DNA from: Opitutaceae bacterium
GTDB lineage: Bacteria; Verrucomicrobiota; Verrucomicrobiia; Opitutales; Opitutaceae
NCBI GenBank assembly: GCA_027485815.1
Contig: JAIXQE010000096.1
Span: 1 to 53,919 of the forward strand
Direction of reading: 5' to 3'
Length of the DNA stretch: 53,919 nt
Positions within the stretch are counted from its first letter, which is position 1. Every line of letters starts with the position of its first letter. The position numbers were made by a program, and so were the translations under genes. Shown in pieces: positions 4,121 through 8,771 of this stretch. The notes under the pieces were generated by a model. The model was not told where the DNA came from. It saw only the letters and a program-made list of their open reading frames with translations, and did no database searches.

Positions 4121-5706
4121 TCAGCCCTTGGCGGCCGTGAGGGTCTTCCGGGGCAACCGGGTGACGCGCACGAACCGCGCGCGGAACAGCTCGTCCAGCG
4201 TCTCCCGCACCGCCGGGGGCAGGCGGGCCACCAACGCGTCCAGTTCGGGCGCGGGCCCGGCCGGATCGGGTTCCGGCACCTCGGGTTCCGCCGTCGGGGT
4301 CGGCGCCGAAGTCACCGGCTCGCCCCGCTCGCGCGCCTCCGCGAGGAACTGCGCCTCCGCCGATTCGTCCGGCCAGGCCGCCTCGGGCTCAACGGACGAA
4401 CCGGCCTCCGCGGGCGCAGGAACCTCCACTGGCGGTGGCTCGGCAGCGCGCGGCGGCGCAGACACGGCCGCGGCAGTCGCCGGGACGGGAATCTCCGGCG
4501 GGGAGACGGGAGGCGGCGGCGCGGCGGAAGCGGAGGCCAGGCGGGCCTCGAGCCGGTCAATCAGGCCTTTTTTTTTTCGTCCGCGCCCGGGGCCTCCTCG
4601 GCCAGGGCCGTCAGCTCCTTGAGCAGGCTGTCGATCGCGCGCGCGCGGCTCGCCTCCACCGCGCGGAGGAGCGTCACCTCGAAATTGATCTTCTCGGCCA
4701 GGCCGAGCTTCACCCCGCCCTCGCCCTCGCGGAGGGCGTCCAGCAGCCGTGTCAGCTGCTCGGTCGTCAACGCGACGCCGCCGAGCTGGTCGCTGCGTCC
4801 GCCGCGCGCGATCGCGTCGAGCAGGGCGGTCCGGAACACGGCCTGCAGGTCGGTGAGGAGGCGCACCAGATCCCGGCCCGCGGCGTCGCAGGCGTCGACC
4901 AGCGCGACGATTCGGCGCTGGTCGCCGAGCGCCACCGCGGCGGCGAGCTCCGCCACCTGCGCGGCGGAGACGAGGCCGTAGACCTCGAGCACGTCCGGCT
5001 CGGTGACGGTGGTCCCGCAGAACGAGATCATCTGGTCGAGGATCGACTGCGCGTCGCGCATCCCGCCGTCGGCAAGCCGGGCGATGCACGCCAGTGCGGC
5101 GGGATCGGCCTGGATGCCCTCGGCGGTGGCGATGAGCTGGAGCCGGGTGACGATGAGTTCGTCCGGGATCGGCTTGAGGTCGAAGCGCTGGCAGCGCGAG
5201 ACGATGGTCGGCAGCACCTTCTGCGGGTCGGTGGTCGCGAAGATGAACTTCACGTGGGCCGGCGGCTCCTCGAGGGTCTTCAGCAGCGCGTTGAACGCCG
5301 CCGCGGAGAGCATATGGACCTCGTCGATGATGTAGACCTTGAAGCGGCCCTGGGCGGGGGCGTAGCGGACGGTCTCGCGGAGGTCACGGACCTGGTCGAC
5401 GCCGTTGTTGGAGGCGCCGTCGATCTCGATCACGTCGAGGTGGGAGCCCTCGGCGATGGCGATGCAGGCGGGATCAGCCGGGTCGAAGTCGGCATTCGGG
5501 CCGCCGGTGCAGTTGAGGGCCTTGGCGAAGATGCGGGCAGTCGAGGTCTTGCCGGTGCCGCGGGGCCCCACGAACAGGTAGGCATGGGCGATGCGCTGGC
5601 GGGAGATCGCGTTGCGGAGCGTGCGCACCACGTGGTCCTGCCCGACGACGTCGGCGAACGTGCGGGGGCGCCACTTGCGGGCGATGACCTGGTAGGCGGA
5701 GGACAA
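4121..5706 (-). CDS. dnaX: DNA polymerase III tau subunit (dnaX full-length, needs a -1 frameshift)
   Basis: Tau is the clamp-loader ATPase that also links the polymerase cores and, in well-studied bacteria, the DnaB helicase. Zero frame runs from the TTG at 5706 ([16 protein letters not shown], standard DnaX N-terminus) through Walker [18 protein letters not shown] and IVSRCQRFD to a poly-A run at 4568-4577. Shifting by -1 there gives DEKKK then [14 protein letters not shown] and 148 more codons to a TGA at 4121. Predicted tau is 528 aa, shorter than E. coli's 643. The tau-only part is a Pro/Ala/Glu-rich linker plus a short basic, helical tail. Only two cysteines remain of the usual four-cysteine zinc module (LNCTGG...[10 protein letters not shown]). 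The TTG start is the only plausible one next to the conserved N-terminus; no clear Shine-Dalgarno is visible. Confidence 0.88.
4561..5706 (-). CDS. dnaX: DNA polymerase III gamma subunit (dnaX zero-frame product)
   Basis: Without frameshifting, translation from 5706 ends at the TGA at 4563-4561, giving 381 aa ending EKKKA. This product keeps the complete AAA+ ATPase (Walker A, DEVH, SRC arginine motif) and the collar region that forms the clamp-loader pentamer. It lacks the polymerase-binding tail. The stop lies only two codons after the slippery heptamer, the same arrangement as in E. coli dnaX. Gamma is therefore a likely real second product rather than a broken gene. Mass spectrometry or Western blot with an N-terminal antibody would show both forms. 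Confidence 0.8.
4567..4577 (-). promoter_or_regulatory. dnaX programmed frameshift / transcriptional slippage site
   Basis: On the minus strand there are ten A followed by G. In the dnaX zero frame the 3' seven bases read A AAA AAG (4573-4567), identical to the E. coli dnaX slippery heptamer. A run of nine or more A is also the transcriptional-slippage signal known for Thermus dnaX, so either mechanism could act. A purine-rich GAGGAGG (4599-4593) lies upstream and could act as an internal Shine-Dalgarno stimulator, though its 19-base spacing is longer than usual. Downstream, GAGGCC/GGCCTC arms (4533-4538 and 4544-4549) can form a 6-bp hairpin, 17 bases after the heptamer. Confidence 0.8.
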
Positions 5707-5944: not shown

Positions 5945-7852
5945 TCAGAGCACCTGCAGCTTGCGGCGGTAAAAGGCCACCACCTCGTCGGGATCGTCGG
6001 TGAACAGGATGTAGTCGGTCATCCACGCCGGCGCGCGGCCCTGCTTGATCATCACGCGCAGCTGGCGGCGCAGGTCCTCCCAGAACTCGGCGTTGAAGAA
6101 GACGTAGGGCACGCGCGGGCGGATGCCGAGCTTGAGGTTGCAAAGCTCGATGCCCACCTCCTCGAGGGTGCCGACGCCGCCGACGTTGAAGACGCAGAAA
6201 TCCGCCGCCTCGAACCACTTTTGCCGGAAGTGGCGAGAGTCCTCCTGGAACGTGTTGAAGAAATCGACGCCGAGCTCCGGGGGCTGCGCCTCGAGCTGCA
6301 GGAAGCACGCGCCGGTCAGGGCGCCCTTGGCCCGCGCCTGCTCGGTGGCGAGGCGCATCACGCCCCCGCCGCCGCCCGTGAGCACGCCGAGGTTGTGGCC
6401 GATGAAGCCGGTCACCTTGTCCACCAGGGCGGAGATGCGGCCGGCGTCGACGGGGTCGAGGTTCACCGCGGAGCCGTAGAACGCGAGGATGGTGGACTCG
6501 TTGAAGCGGCGGGCGATCTCCTCGCGCACGAAGAAGCCGCGCTCCCGCTTGTAGGTATGGACGTACAGGTCGCGCGTGGTCTCGTCGTACCAGTAGGTGT
6601 CGATGCCCAGCGACCGGAGGGTGTCGAGCCGCCCGTGGGCGTGGCTGGAGAAGAAGTAGCCGTGGGTGCGCGAAGCCTGGCGGAAGACGATGCGCCGCAG
6701 GCCCAGCTCGGGGAGGCGGGCAAAGAGCTCCACCTGCTCCATCAGGCCCGGGAAATATTCCGTGACCAGCGTGTCGGCGCCGGGCTCCGCCGCGTCGAGG
6801 GCCTGGATCATCGTGCGGTGGCCGAGAGAGCTCCGTTTCGACTCCAGCAGCCGGCGGACATCCGCACCGGCGCGCACCAGCAGCGCGCGGTTGTCGACCG
6901 CCCCGGACTGGCCGCGCACGGACAGCCGGGTGCGGGGGCGCGCCTCCTCGGCCACGCAGGCGGGGCAGTCATCCATCGCCTTGAACAGACCGGCCGCGGT
7001 CGCGAGCAGCCGGGTGCGCTTGCGGGCGAGGGTTCGCACCTCCGGATCCTCCACCTGGGGCGCGCGGAACACCTCCACGGAGACGAGCGGGTTCACCACG
7101 GGCTGCGCGCCCGGGTTGTAGATCTCGAGCATCACGTTGGTCCCGAAGGTCTTCACCGGGTCGAGCAGGACGGCGCTGGTGTGGATGCCGAAGTTCCCCG
7201 CGCCCTGGTTGAGCACGACGTAGTGCTCCTTCAGGTACATCGAGCAGCTGGTGAGAACGCCCGCGCGGGGGGCGATGGTCAGCGGGGCGGCCTCGCGGCG
7301 CACCTGCACGCGGTCGAGGAAGCCCCGGCCCAGCACACCGGACACGACGCGCTCGAGGTCGTCCCGCTGCAGCTTGGGGCTGAGGGTGTAGACGACGTGG
7401 TGCGGGGTGAGGTAGACCCGGCCCTCGGAGTCGATGCTGATGGTGTTGGGCAGCTTGAGCTGGTTCGCCTTCAGCGCGTCCCAGATCTCCGCGGTGGTGA
7501 GCTTGGCCTCGGCCGGCGCGTGGTAGAGCCGGCCGGCGGGCGCGCCGACGCGCAGGAGCTTCTTCCAGTACGCCGCGTGGGGGAAGCTGGGGTCGTAAAG
7601 AAAAGCCTCGGCGTCGAGCTCGAGGCGCCCCCCCTCGATGCGGAGGGGGCCGGTGAGGGTCACCTCCAGCCCGATGCGGGCGAGCGAGCTGCGGAGGGAG
7701 AAGCGCAGGCGCGGCAGGAGCGGGCGCAGGGCCTCCAGTTCGGCGGGATGGCGCGGCCAGAAGGCCAGCGTGAGGCGGACCGCCCGCTCGTCCTTGTTCC
7801 TGACCGTGAGGATTTGGCCGTCGGGACTCGTCCAGAATTGCGCAGGATGCAT
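5945..7852 (-). CDS. Two-domain protein with C-terminal LOG (lysine-decarboxylase-like Rossmann) domain
   Basis: 635 aa from the ATG at 7852 (GGAG seven bases upstream); the frame stays open further upstream but would run into the FKBP gene. The C-terminal part (about 450-635) is a LOG-family nucleotide-binding fold, with LAFYGSAV, GVLTGGGGGVM and the GGVGTLEE motif in place of the usual PGGxGTxxE. LOG proteins release cytokinin-type bases from nucleoside monophosphates, but many bacterial members have unknown substrates. The first roughly 440 residues match no family I recognise. They contain a CPAC pair near residue 295 and no signal peptide. The gene is followed on the same strand by ffs and dnaX. 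Function beyond nucleotide binding is unknown. Confidence 0.85.
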   Translation of the reverse strand: MHPAQFWTSPDGQILTVRNKDERAVRLTLAFWPRHPAELEALRPLLPRLRFSLRSSLARIGLEVTLTGPLRIEGGRLELDAEAFLYDPSFPHAAYWKKLLRVGAPAGRLYHAPAEAKLTTAEIWDALKANQLKLPNTISIDSEGRVYLTPHHVVYTLSPKLQRDDLERVVSGVLGRGFLDRVQVRREAAPLTIAPRAGVLTSCSMYLKEHYVVLNQGAGNFGIHTSAVLLDPVKTFGTNVMLEIYNPGAQPVVNPLVSVEVFRAPQVEDPEVRTLARKRTRLLATAAGLFKAMDDCPACVAEEARPRTRLSVRGQSGAVDNRALLVRAGADVRRLLESKRSSLGHRTMIQALDAAEPGADTLVTEYFPGLMEQVELFARLPELGLRRIVFRQASRTHGYFFSSHAHGRLDTLRSLGIDTYWYDETTRDLYVHTYKRERGFFVREEIARRFNESTILAFYGSAVNLDPVDAGRISALVDKVTGFIGHNLGVLTGGGGGVMRLATEQARAKGALTGACFLQLEAQPPELGVDFFNTFQEDSRHFRQKWFEAADFCVFNVGGVGTLEEVGIELCNLKLGIRPRVPYVFFNAEFWEDLRRQLRVMIKQGRAPAWMTDYILFTDDPDEVVAFYRRKLQVL

Positions 7853-7997
7853 CGGGGAACTCCGGCGAGGGTAGGCACGACCGCGCGCCGGGACAAGCGG
7901 GGAGAACGGGATTGCGTTCACCGGGGGCGGCTGGCACGCCTTCCCGACTTCGCGGCCCTTTCTGCGGGCCCGCGCCTCCTCCCACCCACCTCGAACC

Positions 7998-8771
7998 ATG
8001 AAGTTCCCGTCCCTCCCCCTTCTCAGCCTGGCCCTGCTCGGGGCCGGCTCCCTCGCCGCGCAGGAGGCCAAGGTCACCCTGCCCGGGGCCGCCGCCCCGG
8101 CCGCCGCCGCCAAGCCCGCCTTCACCGACGCCCAGATCCTTGAGGAATTCGGCTGGTTCATCGGCAAGCGCGTCGGCCTCGGCGAGCTTGAGTTCTCGAG
8201 CGAGGAGCTGGAGACGCTGATCAAGGGTTTCCGCTCGGCCGCCGCCGGCAAGGACTCCCCCTACGAACTGGAGAAGATCGGGCCCCTGATGGACGACTTC
8301 ATGCAGAAGAAGCAGAACGCCTATACCGCGAAGCTGAAGACGAAGAATTCGGCCGTGAACGAGGCGTACTTCACCAAGCTGCGCGAGAACAAGGCCGTCG
8401 TGGAGCTGCCCAGCGGCCTCCGCTACGAGATCACCCAGGCCGGCCCCGGCCCCGCCCCGAAGGCCACCGACACCGTGCGCGTCCACTACGTGGGGAAGCT
8501 GATCGACGGCACCGAATTCGACAGCTCGATCAAGCGCGGCGAACCGGCCGAGTTCCCCCTCGACCAGGTCATCCCCGGCTGGACCGAGGGCATCCAGAAG
8601 ATGAACAAGGGCGGCAAGATCCGCCTCCACGTGCCCCCGCAGCTCGGCTACGGGGACGACGGCCGCCCCGGCATCCCGCCGAGCTCGACCCTCGTCTTCG
8701 ACGTCGAACTGCTCGACATCAAGTCGCCGCCCGCCGCCGCCCCCGCCGCGCCGGCCCCGGCCAAGAAGTAA
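7998..8771 (+). CDS. Secreted FKBP-type peptidyl-prolyl cis-trans isomerase
   Basis: 257 aa. A signal peptide (about 1-20, MKFPSLPLLSLALLGAGSLA) predicts export to the periplasm. Residues about 45-130 form the helical FKBP_N dimerisation domain seen in FkpA/Mip proteins. Residues about 145-243 are the FKBP catalytic domain, with VRVHYVGKLIDGTEFDSS, VIPGWTEGI and LGYGDDGRPGIPPSSTLVF. The likely role is folding of exported proteins. The tail is Ala/Pro-rich. It is transcribed divergently from the LOG gene (145 bp between starts) and is followed by a strong intrinsic terminator, so it is probably monocistronic. Confidence 0.93.
   Translation: MKFPSLPLLSLALLGAGSLAAQEAKVTLPGAAAPAAAAKPAFTDAQILEEFGWFIGKRVGLGELEFSSEELETLIKGFRSAAAGKDSPYELEKIGPLMDDFMQKKQNAYTAKLKTKNSAVNEAYFTKLRENKAVVELPSGLRYEITQAGPGPAPKATDTVRVHYVGKLIDGTEFDSSIKRGEPAEFPLDQVIPGWTEGIQKMNKGGKIRLHVPPQLGYGDDGRPGIPPSSTLVFDVELLDIKSPPAAAPAAPAPAKK

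Follow-up and report, generated by a model that had tools for sequence, protein, structure and literature searches.

dnaX is the clamp-loader gene that codes for both gamma and tau. In the window analysed here (the whole stretch of 53,919 nt, contig JAIXQE010000096.1 of the Opitutaceae bacterium assembly GCA_027485815.1), the reading frame of this gene stops directly behind a run of ten A, and the sequence that would complete tau continues in the -1 frame. Is this interruption genuine, and if so, how could such a gene give rise to tau? The initial annotation had read the locus as a dnaX recoding site with an E. coli-type heptamer, at which either the ribosome or RNA polymerase might slip, and left the choice between them open. 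The elements of the locus are the following:

4561 to 5706, minus strand: zero frame of dnaX, with a TTG start at 5706 and a TGA stop, coding for a 381-aa gamma-like product with AAA+ domain, lid and domain III
4593 to 4599, minus strand: Shine-Dalgarno (SD)-like GAGGAGG, separated from the run by 15 nt and from the heptamer by 19 nt, with a doubtful role in recoding
4568 to 4577, minus strand (T10 on the plus strand): run of ten A, the putative slippage site and the window's longest A/T homopolymer
4567 to 4573, minus strand: zero-frame heptamer A AAA AAG, made of the last six A and the following G
4561 to 4563, minus strand: zero-frame TGA stop, separated from the AAG codon by a single sense codon
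4557 to 4559, minus strand: +1-frame TGA stop, so that TGATTGA holds stops in both non-tau frames
4121 to 4567, minus strand: -1-frame tail of tau, consisting of 148 codons and a stop, with an Ala/Pro-rich linker and a conserved C-terminal end
4124 to 4258, minus strand: last 45 codons of the tau tail, conserved

The identity of the gene is clear. In a protein search dnaX (5706-4561, minus strand) was the only match in its own genome at E 1e-70 or better, the further matches listed being distant, partial relatives. The zero frame scores 419.6 bits against the NCBIfam model TIGR02397 (dnaX_nterm; cut-off 250), as required of a DnaX protein, and exceeds the cut-offs of Pfam PF13177 (delta2), PF22608 (lid) and PF12169, the last of which identifies the DnaX domain III (32 bits, cut-off 24.4). 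Its end reads GAC GAA AAA AAA AAG GCC TGA, with the stop 4 nt past the ten A. Read in the -1 frame as AAA AAA GGC CTG ATT GAC, the sequence stays open for 148 codons up to the stop at 4121-4123, and a joined product is predicted to have 380 + 148 = 528 aa. The initial annotation's description of the site as a dnaX A10 recoding site with a coherent 148-codon tail and predicted products of 381 and 528 aa therefore holds. Automatic annotation would likely label such a dnaX as truncated. A 768-aa ORF lies upstream of dnaX on the same strand (5945-8251, minus strand).

The run and the split exceed what is expected by chance, since runs of at least ten A or T are found at only two places in the 4.08 Mb available from the genome of the window (97% complete), the dnaX A10 and one run of 11 A, and since the dnaX arrangement is kept across the family. 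The 11-A run, the sole other A/T run of this length (L314:2003-2013; G000:C232:6702-6712, minus strand), is located close to the beginning of an ORF resembling, by eye, a VOC/glyoxalase-type protein, and may be a second slippage site or be situated in the leader.

To place the locus among its relatives, the dnaX protein was sought in 456 distinct genomes (G000-G455), from part of which dnaX loci were taken; an additional scan of named genomes contributed 80 loci, all of which were used. Loci from the first family search (L001, L002), one without a match (L137) and the tRNA, pattern and related loci (L271-L314) were left out before counting. Removal of duplicates reduced 295 matched loci to 255 distinct ones, which are phylogenetically related, so that counts among them are not independent. 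The tau frame was defined as the sole frame open for at least 60 codons past the run.

Within the family of the window (f1; 93 distinct loci), tau lies in the -1 frame in 91 loci, with A10 in 77 of them and A9 in 14. The 14 A9 runs begin one base later (phase 2), leaving the frames unchanged. The two exceptions are a locus with A12 and tau in the zero frame, and a contig that ends before the run (L136). This comparison of run lengths, which the initial annotation had suggested as a check, also settles the alternative that it had raised against itself, namely a one-base assembly error. Homopolymers of ten bases are indeed error-prone and the genome of the window is fragmented (232 contigs), but the identical split is found in 91 of 93 distinct loci of the family, among them a contig of the Opitutaceae isolate Cephaloticoccus primus (L073), with A10 and tau in -1, and loci of single-contig genomes. 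We therefore reject an assembly error, which we consider to be practically without likelihood; judged from the sequences of the relatives, the putative recoding site is real and conserved in the family.

The tau tail is under purifying selection. Its omega is 0.23-0.30 in comparison with five near relatives and 0.31-0.42 with three more distant ones (0.04-0.06 and 0.12-0.16, respectively, for the domain), and drops to 0.04-0.08 for the last 45 codons in comparison with three near relatives. No Pfam match over the cut-off and no NCBIfam match were found for the tail, as could be expected if the gene were decaying and had lost tau, or if the tail were a separately started protein. Against both stands the purifying selection on the tail, and against the second also the position of the first possible start: counting ATG and GTG but not TTG or CTG, it lies at a median of 30 codons past the run, falls within 10 codons in only 15 of 153 loci and is absent in one. 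Decay or a separate tail protein is thus hardly credible as an account of this locus.

A different possibility is that the run varies at the DNA level, with replication slippage altering its length so that cells alternate between a gamma-only and a tau-producing state. Homopolymer runs can mutate, and both A12 and A10 occur within one genus (g68, with A10 and a -1 tau in nine of ten loci and A12 and a zero-frame tau in the remaining one). However, nearly all assemblies of the family share the non-tau frame, whereas random switching would often show tau in frame. Moreover, polymerase and helicase are connected through tau within the replisome, and cells should pay a cost for switching it off. 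Phase variation of this kind appears extremely improbable.

In its layout the gene reverses both of the well-known systems, E. coli and Thermus: it is tau, not gamma, that needs the slip. The initial annotation missed this reversal, and its label 'E. coli-type' suits no more than the heptamer, A AAA AAG being read in the zero frame as in E. coli. In E. coli, according to the excerpted text of PMC5009743, tau is in the zero frame and gamma is made by a shift; a stimulatory SD and a stem-loop are present, and there is a single lysine tRNA. The window gene, unlike that of E. coli, has tau in -1, two lysine tRNAs, no downstream structure beyond that of controls, and an SD-like motif 19 nt away. 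Thermus thermophilus dnaX, with its transcriptional slippage on A9, is similar in having an A-run at the end of gamma, near stops in both non-tau frames and two lysine tRNAs (PMC5009743 and PMC1088944, in the parts available). The window likewise has a run of at least nine A (ten), stops in both non-tau frames and separate lysine tRNAs (TTT and CTT), but it is gamma that occupies the zero frame here, whereas in Thermus it is tau.

A reversed layout with ten A was published in 2013 together with a proposal of slippage (Antonov et al. 2013, PMC3711429). In the part of that paper available, a GeneTack two-ORF cluster has the short product in the zero frame, the tail in -1 and poly-A at the junction; exactly ten A are found in nine of its 17 genes, and transcriptional slippage is proposed. 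As the zero frame of the window gene ends at the run, its tail lies in -1 and the junction is poly-A, we regard it as an Opitutaceae representative of this already described two-ORF kind; the 17 genes, whose species list is in the supplement of PMC3711429, may themselves include an Opitutaceae genome. Another likeness is with Blochmannia dnaX, whose frame is possibly restored by transcriptional slippage at a poly-A/T tract (excerpts of PMC3017870). However, the frameshift of this AT-rich endosymbiont lies further downstream than the gamma/tau site, and as described there has the appearance of erosion and not of a conserved switch.

Whereas all 17 genes of the GeneTack cluster are described as -1 in the accessible text, the Opitutales also have zero and +1 layouts. 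Among the 255 distinct loci, tau lies in the -1 frame in 153, in the zero frame in 39 and in the +1 frame in 30, with 26 loci lacking a run, four ambiguous and three cut; 216 of the 222 classified loci have A9 or A10. The +1 layout is found in five families (f8, f16, f19, f20 and f22), including the single-contig genomes G246 and G303. In one genus alone (g82; eight genomes, L335-L342) tau is in the +1 frame in five genomes, in the zero frame in two and in -1 in one, with A10 in seven and A11 in one. On a quick tree of 206 loci, built without the loci added later, the tau frame changes at least 13 times.

Homology between the tails can be recognised in part across the three frames. A profile built from 90 tails of the window's family (E<1e-3) matches 45 of 63 other -1 tails, 17 of 39 zero-frame tails and 9 of 30 +1 tails, and none of up to 264 control translations; for some loci the homology of the tail is thus unproven. 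Nor is the A-run universal in the group: 26 of the 255 distinct loci have no A-run of at least eight, four of them at contig ends (L094, L108, L125, L136) and the rest with short runs or none, and seven of the latter belong to the Opitutia (L036, L037, L050, L051, L097, L118, L207). Two loci of Akkermansiaceae (L111, L116) resemble Thermus in layout, combining A9 and a zero-frame tau with stops within two codons in each of the remaining frames. Outside the Opitutales, the long frame behind an A10 run is the -1 frame in a MAG labelled Victivallis vadensis (L130).

Stops behind the run are a further shared trait. Each of the two non-tau frames has a stop within 10 codons in 148 of 153 loci of the -1 class, 32 of 39 of the zero class and 29 of 30 of the +1 class. 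In the -1 class the zero frame stops within this distance in 145 of 146 loci, compared with 25% elsewhere in the same tails, and the +1 frame does so in 144 of 146, compared with 28%; TGATTGA stands directly behind the run in 66 of the 146. In the 86 loci with Leu-Ile behind the run, the Ile codon that creates the +1-frame stop is ATT in 73 cases, compared with 1060 of 4402 Ile codons elsewhere in genes of the class, and ATT is in the majority in 29 of 34 genera.

These observations bear directly on the mechanism. One explanation is an E. coli-like programmed -1 frameshift of the ribosome at A AAA AAG with the outcome reversed, so that non-shifting ribosomes would make gamma and shifting ones tau. 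The window has this heptamer in frame, as do 109 of 146 loci of the -1 class, and a few bacteria do seem to use a reversed layout through ribosomal shifting (PMC5009743, in excerpt). However, 26 of the 146 loci carry A AAA AAC and 11 have other codons. The +1-frame stop is unexplained by this mechanism, because a -1 shift from the zero frame never reads the +1 frame; and in the 30 loci with tau in +1 no tau could be obtained from a -1 shift at all, so that this layout cannot be attributed to ribosomal -1 slippage. The presence of two lysine tRNAs also argues against ribosomal shifting: among the 40 tRNAs of the genome, tRNA-Lys TTT (L272) and CTT (L275) are both found. According to the excerpted text of PMC5009743, E. 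coli has a single lysine tRNA, whose weak pairing with the second codon makes the site prone to shift, while the two lysine tRNAs of Thermus may be relevant to its use of polymerase slippage.

Stimulatory elements could in principle still point to the ribosome, and the initial annotation had already noted that those of the window are weak and oddly spaced. In E. coli dnaX the SD lies about 10 nt before the heptamer. The E. coli-like SD stretch of the window ranks at 0.39 within its own gene (median 0.32 for the 146 loci with tau in -1), GAGGAGG being 19 nt from the heptamer. Over the class as a whole, SD-like pairing is modestly raised upstream, with a mean energy of -2.0 to -2.6 kcal/mol over 4-19 nt before the heptamer compared with -1.0 in the gene; the lowest value is at 10 nt, as ribosomal shifting would have it, but only weakly so, the excess being broad (4 to about 20 nt) and without a sharp peak. 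The pairing is in the top quarter of the own gene in 65 of the 146 loci, and similarly in 19 of 35 zero-frame and 13 of 28 +1 loci. The excess is thus similar in the +1 class, where a -1 shift yields no tau, yet it leaves room for ribosomal shifting.

The comparisons lend no support to a downstream hairpin. The 60 nt downstream of the run in the window fold no better than their shuffles (z +0.83). In raw folding energy the downstream region is in the top quarter of its own gene in 65 of 146 loci, which dinucleotide shuffles attribute to composition: measured against such shuffles, the mean z is -0.39 for 153 loci and -0.33 for 459 control windows, with no excess beyond the controls.

Upstream of the run the picture differs between families. 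No hairpin is found directly before the run in the window (L003), and the -1 class shows a weak excess of such hairpins (28 of 146 loci in the top tenth). In three families (f19, f20 and f23) the A-run is preceded, at a distance of 2 nt, by a GC-rich hairpin such as CCGGCCTTCCCCAGGAAGCCGG (loci L039, L218-L221, L237, L242, L244-L246, L327, L328, L331). At least seven of its eight pairs are formed in 14 of 24 loci of these families compared with 39 of 6912 control windows, and in 0 of 91 loci of the window's family, 0 of 13 of f11 and 0 of 10 of f21. Changes on both sides are seen at two pairs only and the encoded peptide is conserved, and we therefore consider this candidate hairpin a lead. 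A nascent-RNA stem-loop beside the hybrid stimulates polymerase slippage, according to the excerpted text of PMC5009743.

Even with the heptamer and the modest SD-like pairing in its favour, programmed ribosomal frameshifting is an unlikely main source of tau in this gene, although it may contribute. A second ribosomal possibility is sliding along poly(A), forwards or backwards, that needs no programmed heptamer. Ribosomes do slide on homopolymeric A and lose their frame (PMC4363877, in the part available), and such sliding would likewise require stops in both frames and permit either direction. However, sliding by E. coli ribosomes is described there as robust at A11, with little product at A9 or A10, the very lengths found in 216 of 222 loci here, which makes sliding a very improbable cause.

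We propose instead that RNA-polymerase slippage is the most likely mechanism for tau in this gene, and hold this to be quite probable on the basis of the sequence comparisons. The initial annotation rightly found both mechanisms conceivable, and the choice that it left open is narrowed by the relatives: slippage is favoured because of the stops in both non-tau frames, the changing direction of the shift and the two lysine tRNAs. In the available text of PMC3711429, the occurrence of both directions in one gene is a criterion for transcriptional realignment. RNA polymerase would slip on the ten-A run and produce mRNAs with varying numbers of A. Those with the templated ten A, or any number giving the zero or +1 frame, would meet an immediate stop at TGATTGA and yield the 381-aa gamma-like protein, while those with 11 A (or 8, or 14) would join the frames and yield tau of 528 aa. 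We thus infer both slippage in RNA synthesis and production of the two proteins. The -1 layout needs the insertion of one A; bacterial slippage is relatively low, yet cases with A9-A11 are listed and insertions exceed deletions on A runs (PMC6260861, in excerpt).

Besides the raised SD-like pairing, two observations stand against slippage and in favour of ribosomal shifting. The first is the frequency of A AAA AAG among loci with tau in -1, as given above. The second is a single locus of family f21 (L207), which retains the reversed -1 layout with six A only (A AAA AAC); six A are too short for known polymerase slippage, and this locus is not easily explained by it. In addition, slippage cannot fully scramble the frames, as the -1 polarity is almost fixed in the window's family.

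This near fixation may itself be informative. Indels in homopolymers are frequent mutations, and the family keeps -1 in all informative loci but one despite them; the frame that is coded therefore probably influences the gamma:tau ratio and is under selection. More broadly, and with somewhat less confidence than for the mechanism itself, we lean towards the view that polymerase slippage in the Opitutales has uncoupled the frame of the dnaX head from that of its tail. All three frames would then be open to the tail, even among members of one genus, while the run (A9-A10) and the pair of out-of-frame stops flanking it are retained, and the coded frame would set the gamma:tau ratio, itself selected, as the near fixation of -1 in the Opitutaceae suggests. 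The order-wide changes of the tau frame are the part of this analysis that goes beyond what was found in print: searches of open-licence papers, which covered PMC3711429 apart from its supplement, returned no report of a +1-tau layout or of a tau frame that differs between members of one genus.

A central replication subunit whose production depends entirely on a copying slip would be a strong case of information held outside the DNA reading frame. The Opitutales offer a natural experiment in this respect, with one gene having tau in -1, 0 and +1, and all three within one genus. Their layouts allow slippage and ribosomal shifting to be told apart, and the effects of the gamma:tau ratio to be compared among close relatives.
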